From assembly GCF_913060805.1 (NCBI RefSeq), contig NZ_CAJXTC010000029.1:1-64000 (forward strand): a stretch of DNA of 64,000 nt. Direction: 5' to 3'. A program made the translations under genes and the position numbers. Each line of letters begins with the position of its first letter. Position 1 is the first letter of the stretch. Source of the DNA: an uncultured Draconibacterium sp. Its GTDB lineage: Bacteria > Bacteroidota > Bacteroidia > Bacteroidales > Prolixibacteraceae. Under the pieces are notes generated by a model. It ran no database searches, was not told where the DNA came from, and saw only the letters and a program-made list of their open reading frames with translations. Positions 29,424 through 47,153 of the stretch are shown piece after piece.

Positions 29424-29445
29424 AGGCTAAGATTTGAATAATAAA

Positions 29446-29823: not shown

Positions 29824-29850
29824 GGCTTATAAATTTTAATTGTTAAGACC

Positions 29851-29935
29851 TTAATTCGAAGAATTAATCAAGCTTTTAATCGTCAGATTAAAAGTCCCTG
29901 CCGGACAGGCGCAAGCGATTTTGTGAAACAAAATC
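29851..29935. other. oriT: Candidate origin of transfer (oriT): four inverted repeats
   Basis: Within 85 bp there are TTAATTC-GAA-GAATTAA (29851-29867), CTTTTAATC-GTCA-GATTAAAAG (29873-29894), CCTG-N5-CAGG (29897-29909) and GATTTTGT-GAA-ACAAAATC (29917-29935). They lie 28 bp upstream of mobC and next to the relaxase, the usual position and structure of oriT. The nick site cannot be placed by eye. Confidence 0.6.
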
Positions 29936-30048
29936 ACATCTTGCCAACCCCTCCCCCACCAGCTACAGCAAGGGTTTCGGGCTTGAGAAAAGAAAGAGAA
30001 ACAGGCTTGGCTGTTTCCCTTTCAAAATTCAAATCAACCGGATTGAGG

Positions 30049-30729
30049 CTAACCAACTTTTTGTTTAGCCCCTTTTGTTTTTGTCTGTTTTTCGTTTTGT
30101 TCTTCGGTGAGTTTTTTCTCCTGTTTAAAACCGGAGAAATTGATACTTCGGTTGGCCGCATCGACCTGAAGAGTAGCACCAAATTTTTGTCCGTTTCGGC
30201 CGGTCATCTTATCCAAGAATACTTTTTTCCCGGCAGCCAGTTTTTGCTTTTGCTCTTCCGATAAAGTAGCTCCTTTTATTTTCCCGGGCACTTTAATATT
30301 GCTGGACCGAAGCGGAATCAGTTCATTGGTTTTAGGATCAACGGCCATATAGTACTTGTCTTTCTTTCCATCAATTCCTTTTAGTTCAATGGTTTTTCCC
30401 AGATTCTTATCCTTGAGCAAAGCATTGCGTTCTTCTTCGGTAAATTTGTGCCCCATAAACTTTTCAGGGATGTGCAGGCGCTGAATCGGATGTACTTTAA
30501 CATTTACCGATCCATCTTCGCCTTTCTGCAGTCTTAGTTTTGCCGGAATCCGAAACTCCTGATCGTTGATTTTTGCATTTACCGTGTACAGTTTTTCCGA
30601 GCGGTAACCATTTAAAAAGGAATTTAGTTCCTGCGGTTCCATACGGTTTACAAACTCTTTGTCTACGCCCACTTTTTCCAGTTTGTCAAATGGGATCTCT
30701 TCTTTTTTAATTCTTGTACTTTGTTCCAT
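30049..30729 (-). CDS. DUF4099/DUF3945 conjugation-associated protein
   Basis: 226 residues. The N-terminal DUF4099-like part has FDKLEKVGVDKEFVNRMEP. Two DUF3945-type repeats follow, built around FTEEERNALLKDKNLGKTIEL and LSEEQKQKLAAGKKVFLDKM, with FMGHKF-type hinges. The tail is Lys/Gln-rich. The family is almost confined to Bacteroidota conjugative elements, where it lies by the coupling protein or topoisomerase. Its role is unknown. It sits 36 bp after the coupling protein gene. Confidence 0.85.
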   Translation of the reverse strand: MEQSTRIKKEEIPFDKLEKVGVDKEFVNRMEPQELNSFLNGYRSEKLYTVNAKINDQEFRIPAKLRLQKGEDGSVNVKVHPIQRLHIPEKFMGHKFTEEERNALLKDKNLGKTIELKGIDGKKDKYYMAVDPKTNELIPLRSSNIKVPGKIKGATLSEEQKQKLAAGKKVFLDKMTGRNGQKFGATLQVDAANRSINFSGFKQEKKLTEEQNEKQTKTKGAKQKVG

Positions 30730-30765
30730 ACTTTTTAATTTTTATAAATGAATAAATGGTGATGA

Positions 30766-32697: not shown

Positions 32698-32741
32698 TCT
32701 TCTGGAAGATTAGAGTATTAGAATTTTGGAATACCTGAATA

Positions 32742-33542
32742 TTAGAATGATTGGGCTTTTAGGATGGCTTTGTTTTTCACTTCAAGCGTTAGTTTGCGTC
32801 CGGTGTTTCCCAATGCTTTTTCCAGCAGTTCGATTTTTAGGATGCGTTTATCGGGAACGATAAACTTGGGTAATACTACAACCTCCCGGAGCGTAGTTTT
32901 TGCGGGGATGCGCTCCCAATTGTAATGCCTGTAGAGTTCTTCCACCTGGTATTCCTGAACATTGATGGCTTTTACCCGCTTTTTGTCATCTATCCACCAG
33001 TGAATGGCTTCCATATCCAATACAATATTTGTGGAGTTAGTAATTTCGAGTTCAAAGAACAGCAGGTCCTGTTTCAGGTAAAGATTCTTCAGACGAAAAA
33101 TAATACCGTCCTTTTTAGTTCTTAAGCGAACCGGTTTTTGGGTGCCGTCATTCAGAATCTGGATGCAAAATTCTTTTAACAGGTATTCCGGGACCGGACC
33201 AATATTTAGATCCCCGGCCTTCTCTCCATGAAATTCTTCCAGCTTATAAGAGATCTTATTGCCATCAGAATACCTTACAAACAGGGAATAGGAACGGTTG
33301 GCACTGACCACTGTCAGGGACGATTCGCCTTCAAAATCATCCACAGCTTTTACCCGCACCATATTGGGTTGCTCAGGTACCACTTCAGCAATCAACTTGT
33401 CCGGATCCCCCACCTGCAGATAGGTAATTTTTTCTTCGGCGATCAGGTGAGTGGTTTTGTTTTGGCAGATCTCTATTTGATTTTGAGCATTTAATGCCAG
33501 TGAAAAAAGAAAGAATGCGATAATAAATATTGTTTGTTTCAT
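32742..33542 (-). CDS. traN: Conjugative transfer protein TraN (DUF4138)
   Basis: 266 residues, signal peptide about 1-19 (LALNAQ). DUF4138 features are present: KTTHLIAEEKITYLQVGDPD, VSANRSYSLFVRY and the C-terminal TLREVVVLPKFIVPDKRILKIEL. TraN is a VirB9-like periplasmic/outer-membrane component of Bacteroidota T4SSs. It is the last tra gene of the operon, 5 bp after traM. Confidence 0.88.
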   Translation of the reverse strand: MKQTIFIIAFFLFSLALNAQNQIEICQNKTTHLIAEEKITYLQVGDPDKLIAEVVPEQPNMVRVKAVDDFEGESSLTVVSANRSYSLFVRYSDGNKISYKLEEFHGEKAGDLNIGPVPEYLLKEFCIQILNDGTQKPVRLRTKKDGIIFRLKNLYLKQDLLFFELEITNSTNIVLDMEAIHWWIDDKKRVKAINVQEYQVEELYRHYNWERIPAKTTLREVVVLPKFIVPDKRILKIELLEKALGNTGRKLTLEVKNKAILKAQSF

Positions 33543-33547
33543 GACGT

Positions 33548-34705
33548 TTATTTTTGATTAATGATATAAACCAGTGTGTTCTTTTTGACGGTTACTTTTT
33601 TGAGACGTACCCGTTTAAGCATGGTCTGAGCAGCTCTGTCGGCAGCGCGAATACCGGTATAGGTCAGCGGATTGTTGGTGACACCCATCAGAGAAGAAGT
33701 ATTGGTAGAAGCCCCCACCTCCTGGTAGACTTTGCGTGCGGCATTATCCGGCACATACAAACCTTCCAGTCCATCCAGATCACAGATCGTGAGTTTTACC
33801 GGGACAAAAGAATTTTCAACGGGTAATTGGGTGATCTCAATCAGCATCCGTTCATTTTTGATCTGGCAAACTCCGTAGATAAAGCTGTTTTTAGGTATCG
33901 ACTGTCCATTGATCCGGGTGTCTTCCAGCAAGCGTAGTTTTACCCGGTTGCCGTTGAGCACCGTTGTTGTTTCGTAGATCTCAGCTTTTATATGCGGAGT
34001 ATTTATTGGCTCTTCCCTTTTGAATCCTGATGATTGTTTTTTCTCCAGGGTAAAGGACAGGTTTTGAATGGCCTCAATCTGTTGCAATCTCTCCTGTGCC
34101 TGTTGCAGATAAAAATTTAGAGAATCGTTTTTACGACTGAGCAGGACGTTTTTATCGATGATTTCATCCAGTTCTTCAATACCCGTTGTTGGCGAGGTCG
34201 TCGTTACTGCTTTCTTTGTTTCCGCCTGCTTTTTCACTACCGTTTCCTTTGGATTACTTTGGGATTGCGGAGATGCAGTTTTTCCACTGTTTCGAACTAT
34301 TGGCTCCCCTTTTAATTCCTGCTGCACCTGCTTTTCTTTATTTCGGATATGGGCAAGAATTTGTCCCTGATCAGCATTTGGATCAAGTAGCGTATTCTCA
34401 CGAGCTATTGTATCCTGAACGCTCAGCTCATCTAACTGAGTTGTATCATTTACATCAACCTCAGCGATTTCCGCCACCTGCTGATCATCTTTCTGATAGG
34501 CTTCCATCTTGTCATAGATCTTAATGGACTTTTCCGCTTCCGGGAGATCATAGTTAGCACCAATACCAGATGTATTTGGTTGCGTTTCTTTTACCGTTTC
34601 GGCCTCCGTGCCGCCACCCAACACCCAAAAGATCAGAATTACAAAAGGAATCAGAACCAGCGGAAGTAAAAACAGGGCCTTATTTTTTATCAGAAGTTCC
34701 TTCAT
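33548..34705 (-). CDS. traM: Conjugative transfer protein TraM
   Basis: 385 residues. One N-terminal membrane helix (about 9-30) is followed by a long, disordered and coiled-coil periplasmic stretch (about 40-215) and a conserved C-terminal domain (about 225-385) with RLLEDTRINGQSIPKNSFIYG, the Bacteroides TraM signature. It is a VirB10-like protein that spans from inner membrane to outer-membrane complex. Its start overlaps the end of traL by 26 bp, which suggests translational coupling. Confidence 0.9.
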   Translation of the reverse strand: MKELLIKNKALFLLPLVLIPFVILIFWVLGGGTEAETVKETQPNTSGIGANYDLPEAEKSIKIYDKMEAYQKDDQQVAEIAEVDVNDTTQLDELSVQDTIARENTLLDPNADQGQILAHIRNKEKQVQQELKGEPIVRNSGKTASPQSQSNPKETVVKKQAETKKAVTTTSPTTGIEELDEIIDKNVLLSRKNDSLNFYLQQAQERLQQIEAIQNLSFTLEKKQSSGFKREEPINTPHIKAEIYETTTVLNGNRVKLRLLEDTRINGQSIPKNSFIYGVCQIKNERMLIEITQLPVENSFVPVKLTICDLDGLEGLYVPDNAARKVYQEVGASTNTSSLMGVTNNPLTYTGIRAADRAAQTMLKRVRLKKVTVKKNTLVYIINQK

Positions 34706-35000
34706 TGATATATGTTTTTAATTGGTTTTCAAATGAATCCACAGGCAATTCAAAAGCTGAACGGCCTGTGCTTGTTGGAGCACTGGTCAGCGGTCCGGCC
34801 AGTGGTGCATCTACCTTCCTGGATTTTACTTTTCCGGATGGGATCCAGATAAAGGAGATAGCAAACAGGGCAAACAAAAAAGCGGTGATCAATATCCATT
34901 TGCTTTTTCGTTTTAAGGGATCCAGTGATTTGTCTTTATCGTCCAGTTCGTTTACCCAGCGGGTAAAACGACTGACATCTTTCAAATTATTTGCTGTCAT
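34680..35000 (-). CDS. traL: Small membrane conjugation protein in the TraL position
   Basis: 106 residues, one membrane helix (about 34-52: WILITAFLFALFAISFIWI) with a charged cytoplasmic N-terminus and a short periplasmic C-terminus. Sequence alone is weak evidence. The position between traK and traM and the size match TraL of Bacteroides elements. Its 3' end overlaps traM by 26 bp. Confidence 0.7.
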   Translation of the reverse strand: MTANNLKDVSRFTRWVNELDDKDKSLDPLKRKSKWILITAFLFALFAISFIWIPSGKVKSRKVDAPLAGPLTSAPTSTGRSAFELPVDSFENQLKTYINEGTSDKK

Positions 35001-35045
35001 ATTTTTAATGTATTGTCGTTAATGTGTATCTCAGCCATTGGGCTG

Positions 35046-35672
35046 TTAGAATGATTTTCTTCGGATGCTTTCCAGGTCTTTGTTCTCATCGATCCGCCAG
35101 CTTTCCATCAGAAAACCATGCGGATTATTATCTGTCCGGGAGATATTTCTCAGGTAGCCGGAAGTTTTCAGGCTGCGAATGGTAATGTTGGATTTACGCA
35201 CGATCTTCTGCTTGCCGGTATAGGTAAAGTAATAGGGATAGGCCGAAAAATCCAGTTTTATGGAATCGGTCTGCAGGGTCATACTGATATCTGAAGCGAT
35301 CACCTGGTTATACAGGTTATTCTCCTTAAAGGCCTGGTATTGCTCCATTGCACTCCGGTCGGCCAGATACAGGGCTTCCCTTACATTGTTTTCAATGTAG
35401 GTTTTGTCCGGTTCCAGCGTAAAAAAGAGCTCATGAAAACGTTTAACATGATCCCGGGCTTCTGCATCGCGGTTCTCACTGATATCTTCCCGAAGGGCTA
35501 CTAATAGCGATTTACCGTTATCCAGTACATAGATTTTCTCTTTGGAAAGTTCCACCAGTTGTACCGACTCATAGTAGATATAACTGCTTACTCCCATAAG
35601 CGAGACGCTGATCAGCACCAGCACATAAACGATAAAGCGAAACTTGCGTTGTATATCAAATTGTTTTTGCAT
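35046..35672 (-). CDS. traK: Conjugative transfer protein TraK (VirB8-like)
   Basis: 208 residues. A cytoplasmic start is followed by one membrane helix (about 12-32, FIVYVLVLISVSLMGVSSYIYY) and a periplasmic NTF2-like domain, as in VirB8. The motif EARDHVKRFHELFFTLEPDKTYIE is typical of TraK. It nucleates the inner-membrane T4SS complex. It follows traJ by 37 bp. Confidence 0.9.
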   Translation of the reverse strand: MQKQFDIQRKFRFIVYVLVLISVSLMGVSSYIYYESVQLVELSKEKIYVLDNGKSLLVALREDISENRDAEARDHVKRFHELFFTLEPDKTYIENNVREALYLADRSAMEQYQAFKENNLYNQVIASDISMTLQTDSIKLDFSAYPYYFTYTGKQKIVRKSNITIRSLKTSGYLRNISRTDNNPHGFLMESWRIDENKDLESIRRKSF

Positions 35673-35709
35673 TTCTTACTTGTATAATTTTAGATGAAAT
35701 ATTGGCCTG

Positions 35710-36660
35710 CTATTTCATGGCACCTTTGGTAATGGCCATTACAGCCGCTGTTCGCACCAGTCTTCCTCCTCCGGAGTTGGTTCCTGAGGCATGTATAATC
35801 CAGGATGAGATTTTGGGTACCATTGCCATTCCGATAATTCCGCAAACGGGAACGATCAGGTTGGAAACAAAAAACAGTTTGGGCTCATAGATCAGCATAG
35901 CATTGATCTGCGCAATTTCCATTTCCAGCACATAAATCAGGATCTCCTGCACGATGGACAGGATCAATAAGGCAATGGGTAGGTACAAATTGACATTGAT
36001 AAAACGGGCAATCCACTGCAGGTAGTTATCCTGAAAACCATCAAAGATGGACAGCGCAAACACCAGCGGACCAAAGATTACCAGCAGCACACAGAATACC
36101 GTTCGCAGAAAAGCAATCAGGTAGACCAGCACTTCAAAAAAGGACTCCAGCAATTGCCGCGTGGCATCCATCATATAAAAGTTAATCTGGTTATGAATTG
36201 CCCGACCACTAATGATATTGTAAGAAGTCAGGATCAGATTTACCCCTTTATCCCATAGATCAGCTTCCTTTTCTTCGTTCTCATAGAATAGGGGCAGATC
36301 CGTGGATAGAATAGCCTGTTGTTTGTCCTCCAGCCGCTCTTTTACAATGTGCTTTTTATCGGCATAAACGGCCTCCGATAAATGGGTCAGTCCTTTTGTG
36401 GGTGCCAATAGCAGATTCACAAACGGTCCCCAGAAGGTGATCACGAGTACCAGTGCAAAAGGTCGCAACAAGGGCAGTATCGATACCGGGTTGTCTGCAA
36501 TCAGCTGCTCATAAATCCGTTTGGAGATGTAAAAAAAAGCAGCGATCCCGCCAATAGCTCTTGCCATATCCACCAGGATACGCGCATGGTTTACACCGGA
36601 ATCCACCAGTGTATCGGTAAAAGCAAAAAAATCATTGGTTGTCAGTACTTGTAATAGCAT
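35710..36660 (-). CDS. traJ: Conjugative transfer protein TraJ (VirB6-like)
   Basis: 316 residues, polytopic. Hydrophobic segments lie near 33-47, 65-90, 178-205, 220-245 and 265-290, with the DGFQDNYLQWIARFINVNLYLP stretch typical of TraJ/VirB6 channel proteins. It forms part of the inner-membrane pore. The C-terminal tail GTNSGGGRLVRTAAVMAITKGAMK is conserved in this family. Confidence 0.9.
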   Translation of the reverse strand: MLLQVLTTNDFFAFTDTLVDSGVNHARILVDMARAIGGIAAFFYISKRIYEQLIADNPVSILPLLRPFALVLVITFWGPFVNLLLAPTKGLTHLSEAVYADKKHIVKERLEDKQQAILSTDLPLFYENEEKEADLWDKGVNLILTSYNIISGRAIHNQINFYMMDATRQLLESFFEVLVYLIAFLRTVFCVLLVIFGPLVFALSIFDGFQDNYLQWIARFINVNLYLPIALLILSIVQEILIYVLEMEIAQINAMLIYEPKLFFVSNLIVPVCGIIGMAMVPKISSWIIHASGTNSGGGRLVRTAAVMAITKGAMK

Positions 36661-36687
36661 ACTTTTTTCTGTTAATCGGTTAAATGC

Positions 36688-37398
36688 TTATTTGCTTAAA
36701 AAGGAATAGCTCAGCGGCTGACTTTCGAAGCTGTTAAAAAAGAGCAGTTTGCCATGGGTATAATCCAGTTCTCCCAGTAGTTTCCAAAGCTCCTTACTGA
36801 GCACAGTGAAGGCATCCAGCTTGCGGCCGTGATCGGTCTGAAACAGGTTCACCATTAGAAACTGCATCAAAAGCTGATCTGCTTCTTTCTCATAAATCGA
36901 ATGAATTTTCCCGGAGTTACTCAGCCCTCCCAATTTGTTTACCTTCTGATAGAGTTTGATAAACTGTGCTGCCAGGTTGTAGATGTCACCCAGTTCATCC
37001 GAACGGGCACTAAACAATTGATCACTGATCTGGTGAGTAAAGTCGGTATTGACTTTTATTCCATCCGTTTCTTCCTGCCTGCCTTTCATCTGGCTGCGCT
37101 CTATGGCTTTGGCGACTATGCGCAAAAGGCCGGTTTTTAGCTCTCCGGCAATCTCTCCTCCATCGGTAACAGGCAGTGCTCCCACTTCAACATAATAGTG
37201 TGTTGGCCAGGTACGCACAAAAACATGAGGAATAGGAATCAACCAGCCGGTAAAAGCGATAAACGTAAGCGGATAAGTTCCTTCCATTTCCGGGTAGTAA
37301 CCATGCCAGGGTTTGATCTCAATAAGCTGTGCTTTTGACTGTTCTGTTGCAGTAAAAAGCAGCAAAACCATTATAAGGATTTGAAATAATCGTTTCAT
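36688..37398 (-). CDS. Exported T4SS-operon protein, family not recognised
   Basis: 236 residues, signal peptide about 1-23 (QSKAQ). The mature start IEIKPWHGYYPEMEGTYPLTFIAFTGWLIPIPHVFVRTWPTHYY is rich in aromatic residues and prolines. The rest is helical with IAKAIERSQMKGRQEE and YQKVNKLGGLSNSGKI. It sits between the TraI-like gene and traJ, where CTnDOT has no clear counterpart. It is probably a periplasmic conjugation factor specific to this subgroup. Confidence 0.65.
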   Translation of the reverse strand: MKRLFQILIMVLLLFTATEQSKAQLIEIKPWHGYYPEMEGTYPLTFIAFTGWLIPIPHVFVRTWPTHYYVEVGALPVTDGGEIAGELKTGLLRIVAKAIERSQMKGRQEETDGIKVNTDFTHQISDQLFSARSDELGDIYNLAAQFIKLYQKVNKLGGLSNSGKIHSIYEKEADQLLMQFLMVNLFQTDHGRKLDAFTVLSKELWKLLGELDYTHGKLLFFNSFESQPLSYSFLSK

Positions 37399-37412
37399 CG
37401 TTTTTCGTTGAG

Positions 37413-38057
37413 TTAGTTGTACAGGCTGTAATACATGGCAAATCCTTCCAGCGTACCACTGTCATGGCTTTTCAGGTAGGAAGCATAGAGGAGTTTATTG
37501 TGTAGGTAGCAGATTGTTCCGTAATGTTGTTTGACACTCAGGTAAATTCCATTGATGGCATCATAACGCTGTTTATCATCCATCATAAACAGGTTGTCCT
37601 TAACGATGATATTTAGTATTGAACTAACCAGCGCTTTGCTGTCATCCAGTATCAGGTCAAAACTTTGCACAATGGCGGCTGCCTGTTGGGTGGTAAAGTT
37701 TCCATCCTGCACCAGCAAGGGAACTTTTTCGGTATAGATGGCAATGATCTGCTGCAGGATATCTTTGGTTTCCTGTATACGTTTGTAGTCTTTAATCAAC
37801 AGGGAAACTTTCTCCAGGCTTTCCAGCATCTTTTGGTCGATGCCCAGGATCTCTCCCGTCAGTCCTTTGATGTCACCGTTCAGTGCTTTTATCAGAATAT
37901 TGTACAGGTTGATTTTCGAAAGAATTCCTTCCTCCTGTGTCCAGAGTGCTTCACGTTGTATTCCGGCTCCAACATCTGTTACCGGGGTTTGGGCAGTAGA
38001 TCTACCTGCATTTGCTGCAAGTAGAATTGTAAGGATGAGTACGATTAAATTTTTCAT
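37413..38057 (-). CDS. TraI-like (VirB5-like) exported conjugation protein
   Basis: 214 residues, signal peptide about 1-22 (GRSTAQ). The mature chain is almost wholly helical (NILIKALNGDIKGLTGEILG, VSLLIKDYKRIQETKDILQQI, NGIYLSVKQHYG), like DUF4141/TraI proteins of Bacteroides elements and VirB5 minor pilins. The position after the VirB4 ATPase supports TraI. The sequence match is only by pattern, so the symbol is withheld. Confidence 0.6.
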   Translation of the reverse strand: MKNLIVLILTILLAANAGRSTAQTPVTDVGAGIQREALWTQEEGILSKINLYNILIKALNGDIKGLTGEILGIDQKMLESLEKVSLLIKDYKRIQETKDILQQIIAIYTEKVPLLVQDGNFTTQQAAAIVQSFDLILDDSKALVSSILNIIVKDNLFMMDDKQRYDAINGIYLSVKQHYGTICYLHNKLLYASYLKSHDSGTLEGFAMYYSLYN

Positions 38058-38077
38058 GATTGTACTTTTTTAGGATT

Positions 38078-40489
38078 TTACATTTGTTTTAAGATCTCAA
38101 GGATAGACCGGTCCGCGATCAGCTGTTCCAGTATCTTTTCCTTTTCCTTTTGTTCGGTGGTATAGCAGTAGTATTCTACCCGGCTGACTTCCAGGGCAAA
38201 CACCCGGGAATACTCCCCCAGTGCGATAAATACTTCCTTAAAACTGCGATCTGAAGGCAGGTTTTTATTAATCGAAAGGATCTGTTGTTGCTGAAAAGCG
38301 GTTAGTCCCAAAAAGCTGCTGATCTGTTCAAATTTGTTTTTGAATTTGCCCATGTCCAGCAGGATGCGGGTATCGGCGTTATTGATTATCGCATCACGGA
38401 TGATAGGGGATGAAATCACATCATCCACTTCCTGTGTTACCACCATGGCCTCACCAAAAAACTTACGAATGGTTTTAAAAAAGTATTTCATATACCCGGC
38501 CATCTGGGGTGTGGCTATGGCTTTCCATGCCTCTTCAATACAGATCACCTTTCGTGTGTTTTTCAACCGTCGCATCTTTTTTAGGAAAATGTCCATGATA
38601 ATCAGCGTGGCCACCGGAAAAATCACCGGATGATCTTTGATGTTATCCAGCTCGAAAACAAGGAAAGGGCAGCTGAAAAATTCATCGGTCTTCATGGGTT
38701 TGTTTAGCAGGTAATCATATTCTCCTCCCCGGTAGTATTTTCCAAGGATGAAGAAAAATTCATGGGTATTAAATTCCAGTGACTGCTCCTCCACCAGCTG
38801 CGGGATATAGTCCCGGCAGAACTCATAAAAACCATTAAAGGACCGTTCAACATCTTCGGTTTTGAAAAACTGTTTTAATGCATGGGCAATCACATCCTTT
38901 TCCATTTCGGAGAGATCCGGTTTATATACCGTGTAGATTACTGAAAGAATAGTTTGCCGGTGTTCCAGATCCGCGTCACCCTCCACCACAAAGGGATTAA
39001 AGGAAATGGGATTGTCTTCGGTAAATTCAATCATCCGGGCACCTCCCATTTCCTGCAGCCGTTCATCCAGGTAACGTGTCAGAATCTCGTAACTTCTTCC
39101 CACATCCAGCAACACCACATGGCAGTTGTCATTTTCCACGTACTGTCGCAGCAGGTGGTTGGTAAAAAAGGATTTTCCGGATCCTGATCCACCGATAATG
39201 ATTTTGTTGCGGTTATGAATCAGGTGCTGGTGCATGGGTTCATCCGACAAATCGATCTTTACCGGGCAACCTTCCATCCGATCCGAAAGGTGAAGTGTAA
39301 AATCGGATTCAGAGTTTCTGACTTCCCCTTCAAAATTGGTCAGGCAGCAGGCCTGTGGCACCTGTGTCAGAAACAGTTCTGTTTCGGGCAGCTGGGTGCT
39401 GAATGGCAATCCGGCAAAAAACAAAAAAGGCAGGTCAAAAGTATGCTGATAAGGAAAACAGTTCATCAGCGAAAAGGCAGTGGCTGCTTCACTTTTGATC
39501 TTTTTAAGTTTCGGGATTGAGGTATCCAGCAGGGTTACATTAAAGTGAGTTTTTACGATTTTCTCTCCTGATGCTTGTACGGTGTCCAGAAAGTTCTCGA
39601 TCAACCCCGCATTGATTTTGTTCTCTGAGGAAAATTTTGACAGGCTGTAGATCTTTTTGTAATCCCCTTCCAGTCCTGCTTTTACCTCCTGTTGTCCGGG
39701 CACATAAATAAACTGGTTGGTGATATGTGAATACGGAAGGTGCCAGCTCAGCGGATAAACCATCGAAACAGGTAGCCCTGTCCGGGGATGGCCGCTTGTG
39801 GGACGAATTTCCGAAGGCAGATGTGAATAATCACTCAGACTCAGTATTTCCACAAAACGATCCATCACCCGTAAGCGGTCCCTAAAATCAATTCCTCCCA
39901 GCACGGGCTGTCCTTCTCTGAAATTAAGTGTCAGATAACGTTCAATCAGCCCGATTTCGGAGGCTGTTCCCATGGCTTGTTCTCTGGTTACCGGTATACT
40001 TTCTATTCCACTTTGCCGGAATATCGAAGAAAGGTTGGTCTGCAGTTCCCGGATCTTTTCCTGCAACCGGGCTTCTTCCAGCCTTGCTTTGCGTGAAAAG
40101 ATCAGCGAAGATCCCAGGTAGTTTTTCAATAAACCGGTATTCAACAGGCTTACATAGAGGTAGCATTCATGTTTCAAATAGTTTCTTCCCTGAAAATGAT
40201 CCAGATAGTTTCCACTTAAACTGCGTACCTGTTTCAATGTAGTATTGCGGTCGGTGCAAAATCCTTCGGTAAAGAAGAAGTCCTGTTTGTGTAGCAGGGA
40301 ATTTTCCGGAAGGATGTTTATAGCCCGTTGAAAGGTATCGTGCAGCAGGTATAATTTTTCTGTACTGCAGGACAGCAGCTCCGGCAGAAAAAGTCGCATT
40401 CCAAATCCCATATCCAGATTGTTGGAGATCAGGATATCTCCGTCAAAACCCAGAACAGGCAGACTGATTTGTATTGGTTTTACTCTCAT
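38078..40489 (-). CDS. traG: VirB4-family T4SS ATPase TraG
   Basis: The start at 40489 (MRVKPIQISL) gives 803 residues. The frame to 40576 would overlap traF by 83 bp, whereas the chosen start leaves a 4-bp gap. Walker A is GGSGSGKS (433-440), Walker B is KVICIEEAWK, and the motor signature VTQEVDDVISSPIIRDAIINNADTRI follows. The N-terminal half is a typical VirB4 domain. It powers pilus and channel assembly. Confidence 0.93.
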   Translation of the reverse strand: MRVKPIQISLPVLGFDGDILISNNLDMGFGMRLFLPELLSCSTEKLYLLHDTFQRAINILPENSLLHKQDFFFTEGFCTDRNTTLKQVRSLSGNYLDHFQGRNYLKHECYLYVSLLNTGLLKNYLGSSLIFSRKARLEEARLQEKIRELQTNLSSIFRQSGIESIPVTREQAMGTASEIGLIERYLTLNFREGQPVLGGIDFRDRLRVMDRFVEILSLSDYSHLPSEIRPTSGHPRTGLPVSMVYPLSWHLPYSHITNQFIYVPGQQEVKAGLEGDYKKIYSLSKFSSENKINAGLIENFLDTVQASGEKIVKTHFNVTLLDTSIPKLKKIKSEAATAFSLMNCFPYQHTFDLPFLFFAGLPFSTQLPETELFLTQVPQACCLTNFEGEVRNSESDFTLHLSDRMEGCPVKIDLSDEPMHQHLIHNRNKIIIGGSGSGKSFFTNHLLRQYVENDNCHVVLLDVGRSYEILTRYLDERLQEMGGARMIEFTEDNPISFNPFVVEGDADLEHRQTILSVIYTVYKPDLSEMEKDVIAHALKQFFKTEDVERSFNGFYEFCRDYIPQLVEEQSLEFNTHEFFFILGKYYRGGEYDYLLNKPMKTDEFFSCPFLVFELDNIKDHPVIFPVATLIIMDIFLKKMRRLKNTRKVICIEEAWKAIATPQMAGYMKYFFKTIRKFFGEAMVVTQEVDDVISSPIIRDAIINNADTRILLDMGKFKNKFEQISSFLGLTAFQQQQILSINKNLPSDRSFKEVFIALGEYSRVFALEVSRVEYYCYTTEQKEKEKILEQLIADRSILEILKQM

Positions 40490-40493
40490 GTTA

Positions 40494-40787
40494 CTACTGA
40501 TAAATGCGTTGTTTGATGGTAATAAATTCCGGGAGTTGACGGGCAATTCGTTTTTTATGCCAGCCCCGGTGTCCATAGTTTTTCTGGATCCGGTTTAAGC
40601 GATACAGCCAGGCAAAAAAGGCCGGTACACAAACAGCAACCGAGATAAAAGTTCCGGCTGCGATGTAGAGCACTACAAATACAATCAACGTAATCAGTAT
40701 ACCGTAAAGCGCCAGGTAAACCAGCTGACCAGAGAATCCTTTGATGTAAAGGTTGGTATCGATCTTTTGAATGGTGTAAGTTTTCAT
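40494..40787 (-). CDS. traF: Conjugative transfer protein TraF (DUF4133, VirB3-like)
   Basis: 97 residues. Two adjacent membrane helices (about 22-45 and 48-62) lie between short charged ends. The segments YTIQKIDTNLYIKGFSGQLVYLA and QKNYGHRGWHKKRIARQLPE match DUF4133. It is a VirB3-like inner-membrane protein that pairs with VirB4/TraG, encoded 4 bp downstream. Confidence 0.9.
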   Translation of the reverse strand: MKTYTIQKIDTNLYIKGFSGQLVYLALYGILITLIVFVVLYIAAGTFISVAVCVPAFFAWLYRLNRIQKNYGHRGWHKKRIARQLPEFITIKQRIYQ

Positions 40788-40891
40788 TGTTATCCGTTGA
40801 TTTAAAAGGTTAGGGAAGATTGAGGAACGATACAGGATCGTCCCTCAATACCTACTTAGTCACACTGTCCGGTCTCCCCACCGATAATTTT

Positions 40892-41206
40892 TTATGCAAA
40901 GAATGAGCGGATTACTACGCCAACCAGAATCAGGAAGAGACAGGCGCCAAACCATCCCATTATGGCCTTTTGGGTATCCTGGTCCCCACTCTGCCATTTG
41001 ATGTACACACGCACTCCACCGATTAGTCCCACTACTGCCCCGATAGCAATTATAAGGTTAGCAACCGGATCCACGTATGAATTTACTTCTGTGGTTGCCT
41101 GATCAATCCCGGCCGAGCTTTGCGCCATTACGTTATACACTCCCAAAACCAGCATAGCCATAACTGCCATGCCCCTGCGATAAATCGCCTGCAATTGTTT
41201 TCTCAT
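40892..41206 (-). CDS. traE: Conjugative transfer protein TraE (DUF4134, VirB2-like)
   Basis: 104 residues with signal-like helix about 10-28 (ending VMAQSS), then two membrane helices (about 48-68 and 84-103). The pattern DQATTEVNSYVDPVANLIIAIG and YIKWQSGDQDTQKAIMGWFGA is the DUF4134 signature. It is the likely pilin or pore subunit. A 104-bp gap separates it from traF. Confidence 0.92.
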   Translation of the reverse strand: MRKQLQAIYRRGMAVMAMLVLGVYNVMAQSSAGIDQATTEVNSYVDPVANLIIAIGAVVGLIGGVRVYIKWQSGDQDTQKAIMGWFGACLFLILVGVVIRSFFA

Positions 41207-41228
41207 AATTTTTTTTGATTAAATGTTA

Positions 41229-41588
41229 TTATTGATATTGAATCTCTGGAAGCAATTTTTCAAGTCTTCCTGTTAACTCGTTAAGCAGGTAATCAATATG
41301 AATTCCGTCATCCGAGCCGGTCTCTTCGTAGACACTTACTTCCAGCGGAATGGAATTTTCGGAGATTGTGGAAATCAGCTTTGAGGGAAAGTTCGAGGAA
41401 GCAACATGAATAGGTTCAATCCCTTCCGAAACGGACATTTTTGTTGGATGTCCTTCTTCGAACAGGCTATTTTGTTTTTCCCGGCTTTTAATCCAGGCTA
41501 CCAAGAGTACCAGAGTATACCAGGCAATTAATAGAAAAACTAAAAACTGAATAAATTCTTTCCAGGTGATTTCATCTAAGCCAAACAT
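41229..41588 (-). CDS. First gene of the tra operon, small membrane protein
   Basis: The start at 41588 (MFGLDEITWK) gives 119 residues. The frame is open to 41621 but that start lies inside the proposed promoter -7 box. One membrane helix (about 12-33: FIQFLVFLLIAWYTLVLLVAWI) is followed by an acidic cytoplasmic or periplasmic tail. It occupies the place of TraC/TraD-type small proteins before traE. Sequence similarity to these cannot be claimed. It lies 22 bp before traE. Confidence 0.65.
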   Translation of the reverse strand: MFGLDEITWKEFIQFLVFLLIAWYTLVLLVAWIKSREKQNSLFEEGHPTKMSVSEGIEPIHVASSNFPSKLISTISENSIPLEVSVYEETGSDDGIHIDYLLNELTGRLEKLLPEIQYQ

Positions 41589-41618
41589 GATTTGTATTTT
41601 TTCTGTTGAAACTGTTGG

Positions 41619-41689
41619 CAAAATTCAACAGAGCGGCTGGAGAAAAAAAACACCTAAATACACGTGTATTTTTTATATGGTTAAATAAA
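41619..41689 (-). promoter_or_regulatory. tra operon promoter with 42-bp conserved element, copy A
   Basis: The conserved element (41648-41689) contains the perfect 14-bp palindrome AATACACGTGTATT. On the minus strand, 21 bp after the element comes GAATTTTG (41619-41626), one mismatch from TAnnTTTG, and then the start codon at 41588. No good TTTG -33 box is present, which suggests activator dependence. A copy with 3 differences in 42 and the same 21-bp spacing lies at 45713-45783. Confidence 0.65.
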
Positions 41690-42583: not shown

Positions 42584-43834
42584 TTATACACGAAATGCTT
42601 TGGCCATTAATTCCTGATCGTTATTGGAAATTCCTATTTTCTTCGCCAGTTTACGCCATTCTTTTACCGGGGTTGTAACTTCTTCGATAATCCGATCCAT
42701 TTGTTTGTTTTCCAGGCGGAAAAACTGACCTACACTTTTTGCCAGATCAAAATCCAAAGCGTTGTTGTCCATGTCGATATTCAAGGCCAGACCATCTTTA
42801 TCTATCGAGGGATTTATATCATAAGCAGGTGACAAAACCCACCCTTTATCCGTTAAAATAAAACCATGGTTTCGCAAGTGATCATCCGTGTTCGAAATAG
42901 CAATATTGAATACAATCCTTCGCCATAATTGCTCCAGATTCTCATTGATACAAGTACCATAGTTTTGAATAAATTCAGCCAATTCCAGATAACTGGCAGG
43001 ATTATCCCTGATTGTATCTTCATTATTTCCAGTCATGGTCATTGCAGATGCAAAGTGAATACGTTGATCTTGATCCCGGTCAAAACGTTTGGTGAAAAAG
43101 GTGTTGTATTTTCCAGCAACTTTATTAATCCTGCATTGAGACATAACAATCCCGGCCTTTAAGGCCAATTGCCAGGCCAGGTATTCCCATGCAGCTTTAT
43201 CTGTTGTATCATTTTTGGCCGGGAACTTGGCAATCCAGAGATTATTCTCTTTATCAAGAATGTTGGCTTTTGGTCTGGCCCCACCCAGTGAAGATCCCGG
43301 AGCAATCAAGATGGCCAGCCATTTCTTCACGGCACCATTATCCGTTTCGTTTTCAATATTACTCGCAGCCTCCTGAAGCTCACCAACTGAAGACCAGGGA
43401 GGCGTAGGAGACTCTCTATTGTCATCCAGAAAAGCTCCATTCGGGTCTGTTTTAAAACGCAAAGCCCCCATCCGGCTTCCATCCAATACACCAAGCAAAT
43501 AATCTACTTCGTACAACGTTTTTGCCCTCTCCCCTCGTTCTGCAGCGTCTTGAGCTGCCCGCCGCTTCATAAGGGTTCTTCCCCAGGTATCCGGCATACT
43601 GTCCAGGAACAAACCAAAGTTTTCCTTGTTATTTGGAAATTGAGGGCCACTATAAAACTGGATATCCGGATCCAGCAAATGGTGAGTGCCGGATTTTAGC
43701 CAGGCAGCGTCATATTCAAAGCTGAATGCCTTTCTTCCTTTTGCAGCGTGAGCTGAAAGAATACCAATCAACTGAGGATCAGAAAGTCCTTTCCAGTGTG
43801 CATAAACATATATGTCAGTTTTCCCTGTTGCCAT
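42584..43834 (-). CDS. hipA: HipA-type Ser/Thr kinase toxin
   Basis: 416 residues, full length. The N-terminal subdomain (about 5-130) is followed by the HipA kinase core with Gly-rich loop GSSLGGARPKAN (180-191), catalytic segment NTDDHLRNHG (315-324) and metal-binding Asp339 in PAYDIN. HipA toxins phosphorylate a tRNA synthetase such as GltX and stop growth. It is encoded 45 bp after hipB, so it is a complete type II toxin-antitoxin pair, probably stabilising the element. Confidence 0.93.
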   Translation of the reverse strand: MATGKTDIYVYAHWKGLSDPQLIGILSAHAAKGRKAFSFEYDAAWLKSGTHHLLDPDIQFYSGPQFPNNKENFGLFLDSMPDTWGRTLMKRRAAQDAAERGERAKTLYEVDYLLGVLDGSRMGALRFKTDPNGAFLDDNRESPTPPWSSVGELQEAASNIENETDNGAVKKWLAILIAPGSSLGGARPKANILDKENNLWIAKFPAKNDTTDKAAWEYLAWQLALKAGIVMSQCRINKVAGKYNTFFTKRFDRDQDQRIHFASAMTMTGNNEDTIRDNPASYLELAEFIQNYGTCINENLEQLWRRIVFNIAISNTDDHLRNHGFILTDKGWVLSPAYDINPSIDKDGLALNIDMDNNALDFDLAKSVGQFFRLENKQMDRIIEEVTTPVKEWRKLAKKIGISNNDQELMAKAFRV

Positions 43835-43879
43835 ATTTTTTATATCGATGGTTACCTCTTTATATATGTAACCGTGATT

Positions 43880-44167
43880 CTACAACAAATCCAAATCTTG
43901 TAACTTTCTGCCCAGCGTATCATCGGCAGCCAGTTTTAGGAAATCATCCTGCAGGCCTAAAACTCTCAGGACGTTAAAATAAGCACCCATCGATACTTTA
44001 GGATTCCCTTTCTCTATCTGATACAACGTTGTCCTGTCGATATCTGCACGCTCAGCTACCTGAACCGTTGTTAGCTTTCTTCTTTTTCGTGCCAGTTTAA
44101 TATTTTCTCCCAAACGTTCCAATATCTGCAGGTGTTTGGGAAATATAATATTTTTCTTCGTCTTCAT
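43880..44167 (-). CDS. hipB: HipB-type antitoxin (XRE-family HTH)
   Basis: 95 residues. The Cro/C1 helix-turn-helix covers about 22-78 (LGENIKLARKRRKLTTVQVAERADIDRTTLYQIEKGNPKVSMGAY is its core region, given here in part only: key turn ERADIDRTTL). The C-terminal tail DLDLL ends in leucine, as HipB tails often do. It precedes hipA and should bind HipA and repress the operon through the palindrome upstream. Confidence 0.9.
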   Translation of the reverse strand: MKTKKNIIFPKHLQILERLGENIKLARKRRKLTTVQVAERADIDRTTLYQIEKGNPKVSMGAYFNVLRVLGLQDDFLKLAADDTLGRKLQDLDLL

Positions 44168-44220: not shown

Positions 44221-44937
44221 TTATATTCTCTTGTCTACACTTGTCTTTTTAAAAGCAAAGAGGTTAAACATGGCACGCATCCGGCTACGGACACGATTTC
44301 CATAGCGCTGTTCGATTTCAGATGCTGATAGATTGGTGGTAATGTGTGTCATTACCCGATCCGTGATAAACAAATCATAACGGCTGAGCAGGATCTCTCC
44401 CATCACATCGCATTCATTGCCAAAATGTTTTTGCACCTGTTCAATTCCCAGATCATCAAAACAGTAATCAGGTGATCGCAGGTTGGAATTTTTGACTTCA
44501 CTATCAGCCGCATAACGTTTGATCACTTTAAATCCGTCATTCTCAAACTCAAAGCTGATTTTTCGTGTGGATCGTATACGATATCTTTTTCCCGGAGGAA
44601 AGAAATACCGAATCAGCATCATTATGGATGTCTTTCCACATCCAACGGGTCCGGAAAGCATAATTCCTTTATTCAGATCCAGGTTCCTTCTTCTTGCTGT
44701 CTCTTTATCGCCGATGGCATAGATCAGCAAATCATGGATCAACGGATGATCCAGCGGATCAATAAAAAAGTGTTTACCGAAAATCTGTTTCCCCTGGTCT
44801 TCCAGCCAATTTCGACTCTCGGTAAAATTAAAACGAAACATCCCGTCTTTAAACTGAGCAATTTCTTTATAAGGGTTCCGAATAGTCTTTGTCGTTGTTG
44901 ACATGGAATCGCCCACCGGATATTTTTTCCTTTCCAT
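44221..44937 (-). CDS. DnaC/IstB-like AAA+ ATPase, probable helicase loader
   Basis: 238 residues. Walker A is GPVGCGKT (96-103) and Walker B has DYCFDDLG (Asp161, Asp162), as in DnaC-type loaders. The C-terminal TNLSASEIEQRYGNRVRSRMRAMF is a sensor-2-like region with the arginine cluster typical of DnaC/DnaI. The start overlaps the 3' end of the repeat-bearing gene by 71 bp, or 38 bp if Met12 is used. Next to an initiator-like gene it most likely loads the host helicase on the element. A transposition-helper role is less likely because no transposase is near. Confidence 0.82.
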   Translation of the reverse strand: MERKKYPVGDSMSTTTKTIRNPYKEIAQFKDGMFRFNFTESRNWLEDQGKQIFGKHFFIDPLDHPLIHDLLIYAIGDKETARRRNLDLNKGIMLSGPVGCGKTSIMMLIRYFFPPGKRYRIRSTRKISFEFENDGFKVIKRYAADSEVKNSNLRSPDYCFDDLGIEQVQKHFGNECDVMGEILLSRYDLFITDRVMTHITTNLSASEIEQRYGNRVRSRMRAMFNLFAFKKTSVDKRI

Positions 44938-45382
44938 TTTTAAAATTTTTCTGGTGATCCTGTTTATTATTGTTTGTTCTGTTTGTATTGTTTACTTCCT
45001 TATATACCGTCGCACTTCCGGTCGCACTTCCTGTCGTACTTCCTGTATCGGTTCTTGTCGCAGTTCCTGTATCACTTCCGGTCGCACTTCCGGTATCAAA
45101 TCTGATACAGGAAACTTTCCAGCCGGTATGTCTGTTTCCTGAAGCGATATAATCAATATAGTGCCAGTCGCGCAGCTCTCGCATACTTCTTGCATAGGTA
45201 TTGGTAGATCCAATATGCGCCAGGTACATTACCTCTTCCCTGTAGATAGGAAAAGGATTTCTGAAACGGTTTTTATTCCATAGCTGAAACAAGGCAAAAT
45301 ATAAACTGATATGATAAGGTGTAATTCTGGTGTCATCAGCAAACCGTTCAAACAAAGCGGTTTGATGTTTGATGTAGTTCAT
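44867..45382 (-). CDS. Initiator-like protein with in-gene 12-bp repeats
   Basis: 171 residues. The N-terminal ~95 residues look like a winged-helix DNA-binding domain (TPYHISLYFALFQLWNKNRF, REEVMYLAHIGSTNTYARSM, RDWHYIDYIASGNR), resembling DnaD/phage replisome-organiser N-termini. Residues 97-125 are a TGSA-type repeat made by tandem 12-bp units. The tail (126-171) is Asn/Lys-rich. The start overlaps the upstream HTH gene stop (ATGA). A DnaC-like gene overlaps its end. The layout parallels lambda O-P, where ori lies inside O. This assignment is inferred; no named family was recognised. Confidence 0.65.
   Translation of the reverse strand: MNYIKHQTALFERFADDTRITPYHISLYFALFQLWNKNRFRNPFPIYREEVMYLAHIGSTNTYARSMRELRDWHYIDYIASGNRHTGWKVSCIRFDTGSATGSDTGTATRTDTGSTTGSATGSATVYKEVNNTNRTNNNKQDHQKNFKNGKEKISGGRFHVNNDKDYSEPL
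45011..45094. repeat. Seven tandem 12-bp repeats (iteron-like) inside the initiator-like gene
   Basis: Seven consecutive 12-bp units from 45011 show the plus-strand consensus CGCACTTCCGGT, with variants such as CGTACTTCCTGT and ATCGGTTCTTGT. The minus strand codes for Thr-Gly-Ser-Ala units with GGA used for glycine in six of seven units and Arg AGA in the other. To the left, 44930-45009 is strongly AT-rich and also lies inside the gene. Iterons beside an AT-rich strip are the parts of a theta-type replication origin. Confidence 0.75.
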
Positions 45383-45675
45383 TTCCTCCGGCCAAGTGAA
45401 ATTCCATTTTGGACGCTATTGTTCTGCAAAGCTTTCTGTATTTTTTCGCTTTCATAGAAAATTACTCCTCCAAGTTTAGTATATGGAAGCGTTCCTCTTA
45501 CACGAAGGTTTTGTAATGTGCTTGAAGAAATTCCAAGAAGCCTTTTTACTTCATCGGATTTTAACCATTTTTTTGTTGGTAGGCCGTGGTATTCATCAAG
45601 TATTTTCTTAATTTCATCCACCAGATCGAGTTTGAATTCCCGAAGATCATCGGTGGTTACAATTTCTGTTGGCAT
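45379..45675 (-). CDS. Helix-turn-helix (excisionase/MerR-like HTH_17) protein
   Basis: 98 residues. The C-terminal half has KKWLKSDEVKRLLGISSSTLQNLRVRGTLPYTKLGGVIFYES, here recognised by its turn GISSSTLQNLR and wing GGVIFY, a HTH_17 domain found in Bacteroidota elements as excisionase or regulator. It is the first gene of the replication-like operon, fused by an ATGA overlap to the next gene. It may bind its own promoter, the oriT, or the end of the element. Confidence 0.82.
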   Translation of the reverse strand: MPTEIVTTDDLREFKLDLVDEIKKILDEYHGLPTKKWLKSDEVKRLLGISSSTLQNLRVRGTLPYTKLGGVIFYESEKIQKALQNNSVQNGISLGRRK

Positions 45676-45712
45676 AACTAATTGTTTTTAAATGATACAA
45701 TTTGAGTTTTGC

Positions 45713-45783
45713 CAAATATTGAAATTCCTATGCGGAAAATTAAACACCTAAATACAGGTGTATTTATTATATGGTTAAGTAAA
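45713..45783 (-). promoter_or_regulatory. Replication-operon promoter with 42-bp conserved element, copy B
   Basis: The element at 45742-45783 matches 41648-41689 in 39 of 42 positions. It contains AATACAGGTGTATT and the overlapping inverted repeat CACCT-N6-AGGTG. On the minus strand, 21 bp after it, lies AATATTTG (45713-45720), one mismatch from TAnnTTTG. The gene start is at 45675. Element, spacing and degenerate -7 box are the same as at the tra operon. Confidence 0.65.
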
Positions 45784-45785
45784 TG

Positions 45786-46022
45786 TTAGCTATTTACAAT
45801 TGCTTCCCCTTTTTCGATCTTCCATTCCTGACAGGTTTTATGGTGCTCTCGCAAGGATATAAGTTTTTCATCTGGAAGTTGATCAATGAGTTTTAGGATT
45901 TCCTCCAAACCTTTGAGATTCCCAAAATCGGTGAAAGGACAATCGACTTCTACCTTTTCGAAAGGACAAGCCGTAAACGGTACAATCAGATCTGCAAATT
46001 CTTTGTTTTTTTCAGTTGCCAT
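45786..46022 (-). CDS. Small cysteine-containing protein of unknown function
   Basis: 78 residues. It has PFTACPFEKVEVDCPFTDFG and HHKTCQEW, with two CPF motifs plus one more cysteine, so metal binding is possible. An AGGAG-like site (AAAAGGAGATAAC) precedes the ATG at the right distance, which is strong for a Bacteroidota gene and supports this start. It lies just downstream of copy B's element and upstream of the structured spacer, transcribed leftward. The family is not recognised. Confidence 0.6.
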   Translation of the reverse strand: MATEKNKEFADLIVPFTACPFEKVEVDCPFTDFGNLKGLEEILKLIDQLPDEKLISLREHHKTCQEWKIEKGEAIVNS

Positions 46023-46085
46023 GTTATCTCCTTTTTAATACAGCTGTAATTGGGAGATAAGAAGAGCGCGGGCTACGAACTGCAT

Positions 46086-46201
46086 TTGCAAAAGAGGTAT
46101 CGCCAAACACCCACACAACAAATAAGTTGAGCCCACGCTGAATCGTGGGCGTCATACCTATATTCTCGTCGTGTAAAAAAATTGGCGATTTTCTTTTGCA
46201 A
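46086..46201. other. Nested inverted repeats, possible structured RNA or regulator site
   Basis: An outer interrupted stem pairs TTGCAAAAGA-ATCGCCAA (46086-46106, 3-nt bulge) with TTGGCGAT-TCTTTTGCAA (46182-46201). Inside is a GC-rich hairpin GCCCACG-N6-CGTGGGC (46131-46150). Just right are CTAACG (46211-46216) with CGTTAG (46245-46250) and TCTCTC-N6-GAGAGA (46238-46255). The region lies in the 294-bp spacer between rteC and the 78-residue gene. Confidence 0.5.
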
Positions 46202-46316
46202 GAATAAAAGCTAACGCTCTAATATCTTTATAGTAGTTCTCTCACGTTAGAGAGATTTATTTGCATTGTTCGATGCAAAGATAACCCAATCTATAATTAC
46301 AAAAAATATATTATTC

Positions 46317-47153
46317 CTATTTATATTTTTCATTGATTTTAATTAGCATTGCTTCACGCATTTTCTCAATATATATCAGTGGTTCCTTTTTACGCGAATA
46401 TACCGATCGATAAGCATTGTAAATATCATCAGATGGAAGGTTAAAGATCTTGCTAAATAATTTGATCAATTTGTTTACAGAAATATTACCATTATTAACT
46501 ACACCTGTCGCCACTATACCGTAGATCAATTCTGCCAGCCATGTTAGTTTTCCTGTCCACACAAATTCATTATTACTTAGTTTCAGATCATCTTCTTCGC
46601 CTTGCAGTTTATGGATTTCATTTGCAAGATATTTTTCTAAACTTTCATAAGCCAGAATATCAGCAAGTGTGCCATCATAGACAGTTGAAAACTGAGGATC
46701 CAGTAAATAATTATGATTATAGCTCCCCATTAATGGAGCTGTAATATTACGTGTAAAGTATTTATCATCCAGAATTGTTTCTCCTCCTCTGTAATACTTA
46801 ATAAAATCACTGTGATCATCGAGGAAAATTTGAAGTTTAGTGATTTCTTTTATTAAATGTTCAATTATTAATGTGGGTGTAGATTTAGGACGTTGTGATT
46901 CAATAATATGCTGCTTTCGATAAAAACTGATTTTGCTGCATACACGCGGTTTAATGTACTTGAAGAAATAAATTTCTTCTTCTTCTGATTCAAATCCGTT
47001 TTTCAAAACACTCGTTTGTAATTCGGAATAGGCTATTAAACACAAGCCAACTGCTCTTTTGGCCAGGAACACAACATTGTGGCCTTCTTCTTTTAACCGA
47101 CCCAAATCGCTTTCGAGTGTCTCTACAATGTTTAAGTAGGCAGTTTTATCCAT
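46317..47153 (-). CDS. rteC: RteC-family regulator
   Basis: 278 residues. Strong RteC pattern: an N-terminal LETLESDLGRLKE-type helix, EEEIYFFKYIKPRVCSKISFYRKQHIIES, FIKYYRGG, then a helical C-terminus with FVWTGKLTWLAELIYGI and SVNKLIKLFSKIFN. In CTnDOT, RteC binds inverted repeats and activates the excision operon, which in turn triggers transfer genes. Here a terminator hairpin lies 21 bp ahead of the start codon. Confidence 0.92.
   Translation of the reverse strand: MDKTAYLNIVETLESDLGRLKEEGHNVVFLAKRAVGLCLIAYSELQTSVLKNGFESEEEEIYFFKYIKPRVCSKISFYRKQHIIESQRPKSTPTLIIEHLIKEITKLQIFLDDHSDFIKYYRGGETILDDKYFTRNITAPLMGSYNHNYLLDPQFSTVYDGTLADILAYESLEKYLANEIHKLQGEEDDLKLSNNEFVWTGKLTWLAELIYGIVATGVVNNGNISVNKLIKLFSKIFNLPSDDIYNAYRSVYSRKKEPLIYIEKMREAMLIKINEKYK

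Follow-up and report, generated by a model that had tools for sequence, protein, structure and literature searches.

In bacteriophage lambda, iterons and AT-rich DNA lie inside the initiator gene, and the helicase loader gene is located directly downstream. The iterons of lambda are four in number and 19 bp long, according to the available part of one account (PMC3985674). Replication genes are also already known from integrated mobile elements, as far as the accessible portions of the sources go: Firmicutes IMEs (Tn6104 and streptococcal IMEs) carry a replisome organizer and DnaC (PMC5704250), and streptococcal ICEs carry theta initiators of the RepA_N type (PMC4701971). In SGI1, rep shares an operon with an HTH_17 gene within S004-rep-oriV, which is switched on by a conjugation activator, as outlined in part of its description (PMC7433901). 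CTn elements are described, in the excerpt available, as extrachromosomal only during rolling-circle replication (PMC10865816). The locus analysed here belongs to a Bacteroidota conjugative element of the RteC family and is probably a theta-type replication module that would work like lambda O-P, with its origin in the initiator gene.

The window, which is the whole stretch of DNA analysed (64,000 nt), is carried in full by a 73-kb contig. Domain profiles and the list of open reading frames place a conjugative element in the window, with RteC, a MobB-like relaxase, a MobC-like coupling protein and tra-type genes. The NCBIfam MobB and MobC scores fall below their curated cut-offs and the Pfam domains exceed theirs; the tra gene names, including TraE and TraG, are presumptive. 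Having RteC, a Mob relaxase and a coupling protein, the element was classed as an RteC-type Bacteroidota conjugative element. No PF00589 integrase is listed on the 73-kb contig; in the relatives G013 and G005, integrases are located 4.3 and 10 kb from their modules. The features are as follows.

28485 to 41621, minus strand: conjugation genes (MobB-like relaxase, MobC coupling protein, tra genes), from profile matches and open reading frames
41643 to 41689, minus strand: second copy of the 47-nt repeat, 89% identical, just before the tra operon (130-aa ORF, 104-aa TraE-like ORF, TraG)
44221 to 44937, minus strand: predicted DnaC-like AAA+ helicase loader, 238 aa, with Walker A GPVGCGKT and CFDDLG; phrog_50, 1.9e-13
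44867 to 45382, minus strand: initiator-like protein, 171 aa, with an N-terminal domain of DNA-binding type, a repetitive linker and a conserved C-terminal tail ending KDYSEPL
44930 to 45009, no strand: AT-rich strip adjoining the iterons, 27.5% GC versus 40.5% for the gene
45014 to 45097, minus strand: seven direct 12-bp iterons, GATACMGGAAGT / GCGACMGGAAGT, from TRF, matrix scan and self-repeat score
45104 to 45115, plus strand: inverted eighth half-site, GATACAGGAAAC, immediately before the array
45379 to 45675, minus strand: HTH_17 protein, 98 aa, first gene of the operon; Pfam HTH_17, 1.3e-8
45737 to 45783, minus strand: promoter-proximal 47-nt repeat with the near-palindrome AAATACAGGTGTATTT inside, upstream of the replication operon and 62-108 nt before the HTH start codon
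46317 to 47153, minus strand: RteC-family regulator upstream of the replication module, a candidate activator; Pfam RteC, 1.6e-55

A HipA-like gene and a HipB-like HTH gene (42584-44167), identified by domain profiles, separate the tra operon from the replication module and are a probable toxin-antitoxin pair. A stretch of approximately 148 nt that is apparently non-coding (46084-46231) separates RteC from a 78-aa ORF (45786-46022, minus strand). This stretch has no Rfam match and is 86% identical to its counterpart in L002, a second element of the same genome, the initiator of which is just 52% identical.

The three genes of the operon are all on the minus strand and overlap, by 4 nt between the HTH_17 and initiator-like genes and by 71 nt between the initiator-like and loader genes, in agreement with an earlier note on this DNA that described overlapping genes for an HTH protein, an initiator-like protein and a DnaC-like ATPase. 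The DnaC-like identity of the 238-aa ATPase is likewise upheld by the phrog_50 match; a second match is to phrog_3277 (1.1e-8), and those to NCBIfam DnaI (0.0023) and Pfam AAA are both below cut-off. The protein was assigned by its loader profiles as AAA+ DnaC-like and is a predicted helicase loader, and a profile search against solved structures matched it to general P-loop proteins only. The 171-aa protein has no Pfam family over the cut-off, with no Rep domain (Rep_3, RepA_N or RepA_C), no NCBIfam match and no PHROG below 0.01; it matches no replication family, and its two matches in a profile search against solved structures are at chance level. When 58 members of its family were scanned against PHROGs, 19 matched phrog_15768 (unknown function), five the commonest 'replication initiation protein' family and four a DnaD-like family; some relatives match replication initiation, DnaD-like or O-like families. 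The winged-helix reading given to the protein in the earlier note would have at most these matches of some relatives as its basis.

Within the linker-coding DNA, TRF reported either a 12-bp period with 6.9 copies (score 89) or a 24-bp period with 3.8 copies (score 110), and the units of the array are on average 75% identical in pairwise comparison. The linker has a self-repeat score of 29, which among 852 tiles of 150 nt across the window is reached by one, over the array; the tile overlapping it scores 21 and the top tile elsewhere 13, so the repeats exceed what chance would give. With a matrix built from the same seven units that it scores, these units reach 14.4-20.4 bits and the rest of the 64 kb no more than 13.9. 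The earlier note had placed seven tandem 12-bp repeats at 45011-45094; the number and length of the repeats stand, but the coordinates are one codon off the register found here. It had not listed the inverted half-site, which together with unit 1 forms a dyad, GTATC-N6-GATAC (45093-45108; in full GTATC-AGATTT-GATAC). The in-gene AT-rich strip was found as described, and is a candidate unwinding element on the basis of its composition. In 59 of 79 relatives measured, the lowest-GC 60-nt window of the gene falls 30-180 nt past the start of the linker. The lambda-like layout proposed earlier also holds, with iterons in the initiator-like gene, AT-rich DNA adjoining and the DnaC-like loader gene directly downstream. 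Elsewhere in the same genome, an isolated array remnant (L003, C7:109967-110041) contains the perfect inverted repeat TTCCTGTATCAAATTTGATACAGGAA and lies about 0.8 kb from a tyrosine integrase, and genomes of the same genus contain further short isolated matches.

In the reading that we prefer, the N-terminal domain of the 171-aa protein would bind the dyad and the tandem iterons located where its gene encodes the linker. Copies bound at a spacing of about one turn (11-12 bp) would assemble into a nucleoprotein complex and open the AT-rich DNA alongside, at which the DnaC-like product of the overlapping next gene would load the host DnaB helicase. The likeness to lambda O-P is most likely one of working, which the layout supports, short of demonstrated homology to lambda O or P and of membership in the lambda O family.

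A search of genome contigs gave at least 561 relatives among 593 stretches, of which the best 80 were kept. Within these best 80 of at least 561, an HTH gene is located no more than 400 nt upstream of the initiator gene at 78 loci and an RteC-like match is present at 70; the loader lies within 400 nt of the initiator at 74 of the 75 loci with room for it, the remaining one being at 626 nt. One of the module loci, L031, is on NZ_CP007451. Among 349 genomes sampled from one family, presumably Flavobacteriaceae, that of G117, the initiator was matched in 109 (E <= 1e-30); it was further matched in 14 of 393 genomes of the window's order, its own included (1e-15), in 15 of 61 near relatives, again with its own and with some fragments (0.001), and in 42 of 395 genomes across the phylum, many with the N-terminal domain only (1e-8). 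Of 72,556 plasmid records searched with three queries, one matched; its loader is interrupted as deposited, and no Rep domain was found among the ten ORFs scanned. Paralogs of about 100 aa that consist of the N-terminal domain alone were also seen (L138, L141-L144 and L162), with neither linker nor loader match, and some stand-alone paralogs occur in neighbouring pairs, for example in G376 and G266. Several genomes (G000, with L002 on contig C24, and G005, G008, G031 and G034) contain two or three modules with differing units, which are possibly iteron incompatibility groups. Incompatibility between co-resident modules was set aside, as G1030 and G930 list two copies with equal or near-equal scores.

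Relatives were also found in viruses. Polaribacter phage Freya gp55 has a homologous N-terminal domain and a linker of the GATAATAGTAGT type, and matches DnaD-like (6e-13), replisome organizer (8e-12) and O-like (1e-9) families, mostly via its C-terminal part, within which the O-like matches fall. The next gene, gp56, is annotated as a DnaC-like loader, and the gp55 relative as a 'transcriptional regulator'. Two relatives with the N-terminal domain and iterons were obtained from 16 IMG/VR stretches: L114, whose GATACAGGTAGT iterons differ by one base from the GATACAGGAAGT of the window and whose next gene encodes a DnaC-like ATPase, and L115, with iterons and no loader match. In the viral relatives the domain and the iterons thus stay together and the C-terminal parts differ, with a DnaC-like loader next in two of the three.

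The annotation of the Freya relative would suit a different role, in which the 171-aa protein is an autoregulator that binds the dyad and repeats of its own gene, the ATPase serves a transfer or excision step, and there is no origin. The dyad, generalized as GTNYC-N6-GRNAC, resembles the operator of a dimer, and the stand-alone domain paralogs do exist without a loader. The array, however, is located approximately 285 nt into the second gene, and no position in the DNA preceding the operon (45676-46320) exceeds 6.9 bits with the iteron matrix. The loader is also an almost invariable partner, some relatives match initiator and DnaD-like families, and a tandem array adjoining AT-rich DNA exceeds what an operator needs. 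We regard autoregulation without an origin as unlikely, and prefer initiation at the array.

Selection on the repeats as DNA was assessed in linkers of relatives. From 150 homologs, 131 had at least 60 residues past the N-terminal domain, and 88 of these remained at less than 90% N-terminal identity, this filter alone accounting for kinship in the nulls. A linker was counted as repetitive if no more than 5 of 100 nulls reached the observed score. By this measure 71 of the 88 linkers are more repetitive than versions with their codons shuffled, and 68 are more repetitive than random synonymous versions that encode an identical peptide (17 and 20 failing, respectively), and in several the best repeat lag is not a multiple of three. 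The loader is kept in 13 of the 17 that fail the codon shuffle, and nine of these 13 have at least two motif matches by one of two matrices, which were learnt on a set that included those rows; the other four, L069, L153, L135 and L156, keep the loader with no more than one match.

Motifs were learnt separately on the linkers of the window's group (n=16), a group of mostly Flavobacteria (n=34) and a mixed group (n=38), and matches were compared with recoded sequences. The Flavobacterial motif, GGACAAGYANTGG, has 181 matches in its own group versus 61 (frames 82/74/25) and 58 versus 19 (max 26) in the mixed group, with no enrichment in the window's group (6 versus 6.5). The mixed-group motif has 143 matches versus 48 (max 59) in the Flavobacterial group, with frames 72/71, and 60 versus 35.6 (max 49) in the window's group. 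The motif of the window's group has 74 versus 50.5 (max 61) in its own group, in a single frame, and its 31 matches in the Flavobacterial group are within the null (20.9, max 33). As a control, the first 150 nt of the same genes gave 1-9 motif matches per group. For the hold-out set, 49 homologs were filtered to 26 linkers that share less than 90% identity with one another and with all earlier rows; here the Flavobacterial motif has 109 matches versus 42.3 (max 51), with at least two in 25 of the 26, frames 54/46/9 and main spacings of 11 and 12 bp.

The dyad GTNYC-N6-GRNAC, a pattern chosen after sight of examples and hence not blind, occurs in 45 of 115 non-redundant linkers, as compared with 9.1 (max 15) after recoding and 1.5 (max 4) after codon shuffling. 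By group it is found in 15/20 linkers of the window's group and in 25/60 and 5/35 in the others. Other spacers from 0 to 18 occur in no more than 13 linkers; spacers of 15, 17 and 18 are also above their nulls, which would follow from pairing of the inverted arm with later units of the array. The peptides encoded by the dyad are mostly C-I-R-F-D-T and close variants in the window's group, and the Flavobacterial ones (R-T-K-I-G-T, C-P-K-N-G-T, V-P-N-Q-G-Q and others) are unrelated to these. The inverted arm was compared with the first unit of the same sequence within the window's group, in which removal of identical entries had reduced 39 sequences to 35; kinship was left uncorrected, and L153, probably a chance match to the pattern, was retained. 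On average 6.63 of 9 positions pair, versus 4.87 (max 5.54) with the arm recoded synonymously and 5.68 with the units permuted among sequences; 6.63 was reached in 0/5000 permutations. As the Ser codon before the conserved Cys, the window, L004-L006 and L009 have TCC next to a GGA unit, and most GGGAC-type relatives have AGC next to GCT; the rule is broken by L020 (AGC beside GGA) and by L037, L039, L040, L042 and L043 (TCC beside GCA or GCT). Helix residue 60 and iteron base 2 are concordant in 70 of 76 raw comparisons, 14 ties being left out, a suggestive covariation that comes down to three independent pairs on supported branches and is not significant after correction for kinship.

Taken as DNA, the repeats look selected. 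The check proposed in the earlier note, whether the DNA unit is conserved more than the protein, came out favourably on the two linker counts and on the recurrence of the unit out of frame. Relatives that keep the protein without the repeats, which it had named as counter-evidence, do occur as a minority: 17 linkers fail the codon shuffle, 13 of these with the loader kept, and at least four relatives with the loader lack clear repeats, having no more than one motif match. Those four relatives would suit the proposal that the repeats are a mere low-complexity Thr-Gly-Ser-Ala linker, changing in length by slippage, with no role for the DNA. In the window's group each of the three motifs falls in one frame, and the length of the repeat stretch varies between close relatives, as slippage would also allow. 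However, 68 of the 88 linkers beat a recoding that preserves the protein, the Flavobacterial unit recurs in different frames, and the dyad is coded by unrelated peptides. The inverted arm moreover tracks its own unit, and slippage makes no inverted copies, so that a linker without a role as DNA seems very unlikely.

The 47-nt repeat, which the earlier note had not listed either, is present before both the replication operon and the tra operon. In a comparison of upstream and downstream DNA at 71 loci, 13, including the window, had a match scoring at least 16 and the other 58 had none, versus 0/71 for a control stretch. Close kin are included among the 13 (the window and L031; L038 and L040). 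The second copy precedes the first tra-type gene in 10 of the 13, nine of them at 27-96 nt and L034 at 476 nt; L036 has a weaker match (15.0) located 67 nt before its first tra-type gene, and the matches of L047 and L076, which have no TraE-like match, look like AT-rich chance. The two copies match within an element, and their sequence differs between elements. The repeat is a candidate binding site for RteC or the HTH_17 protein. Since it is common to both operons, replication and transfer may be switched on together, as reported for SGI1, and the same promoter-proximal repeat suggests that the origin probably fires upon excision and conjugation, so that the circle would not be lost. Both origin firing and its co-regulation with the tra operon are read here from sequence.

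A shared repeat in a conjugative element could also accompany a transfer or excision function for the array, as an oriT or a recombination-accessory site, in place of vegetative replication. The relaxase genes (28485-29823), however, are 15 kb from the array, and Freya and two viral contigs have the same domain plus iterons; a transfer or excision site appears slightly less probable even than slippage. The least credible proposal, that the inverted arm and repeats form an mRNA hairpin or attenuator controlling the loader gene, draws on an array RNA fold with z = -1.95 (9/200 shuffles as stable), but this z-score is weak, the tandem direct units are left unexplained by a hairpin, and 41-48 kb gave no Rfam match at E up to 1.

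Returning to a replication origin within the initiator gene, we lean slightly towards a broader proposal. A large class of Bacteroidota conjugative elements may carry an unnamed initiator family with a dyad and iteron origin inside its DNA-binding half as one cassette, which would be exchanged between phages and elements with the C-terminal half swapped. Firing would be coupled to conjugation through an operator specific to the element, of which one copy precedes the replication operon and another the tra operon. During transfer the elements would replicate as theta-type plasmids, and each would have an iteron specificity of its own. If true, a dedicated theta origin would explain the survival of the excised circle, blur the boundary between conjugative element, plasmid and phage, and supply Bacteroidota genetics with a new minimal replicon. 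With frames and peptides differing by clade, an origin encoded within the linker of the initiator that uses it would be a clear case of DNA function dictating protein sequence. With the initiator present in nearly a third of the genomes sampled from one family, the question is a broad one and can be tested directly. No earlier description of this module was found in the open-licence literature by titles and abstract openings; as far as that literature was searched, the novelty lies in the self-encoded cassette of iterons and dyad and in the way it is paired with the control element of the tra operon.

Among the systems compared, lambda O-P is alike in its in-gene iterons and AT-rich DNA with the loader gene directly downstream, but here there are 12-bp direct units plus a dyad in place of the four 19-bp iterons given in the part of the lambda account cited (PMC3985674). 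The loader here is also AAA+ DnaC-like, and the 171-aa protein has no O-like match. Freya gp55-gp56 shares the homologous N-terminal domain, the repetitive GATAATAGTAGT linker and the DnaC-like loader next to it, whereas most of the initiator matches of gp55 fall in a part that is absent from the 171-aa protein. Tn6104 and the streptococcal IMEs likewise have phage-type theta-initiation genes in an integrated mobile element, but are Firmicutes elements compared by description, and in-gene iterons are unmentioned in the available part of that description (PMC5704250). The streptococcal RepA_N ICEs, as partly described, are integrated conjugative elements with their own theta-type initiator, whereas the 171-aa protein has no RepA_N domain (PMC4701971). 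SGI1 resembles the module in that its iteron-type rep gene is preceded by an HTH_17 gene of the same operon, but differs in its RepA_C initiator and in iterons downstream of rep, and its source, in the part available, mentions no loader (PMC7433901). The CTnDOT-type elements of Bacteroidota have RteC, MobB-like and MobC-like proteins in common with this element; CTn are described as rolling-circle when extrachromosomal, at least in the excerpt available (PMC10865816), whereas a theta module is proposed here.
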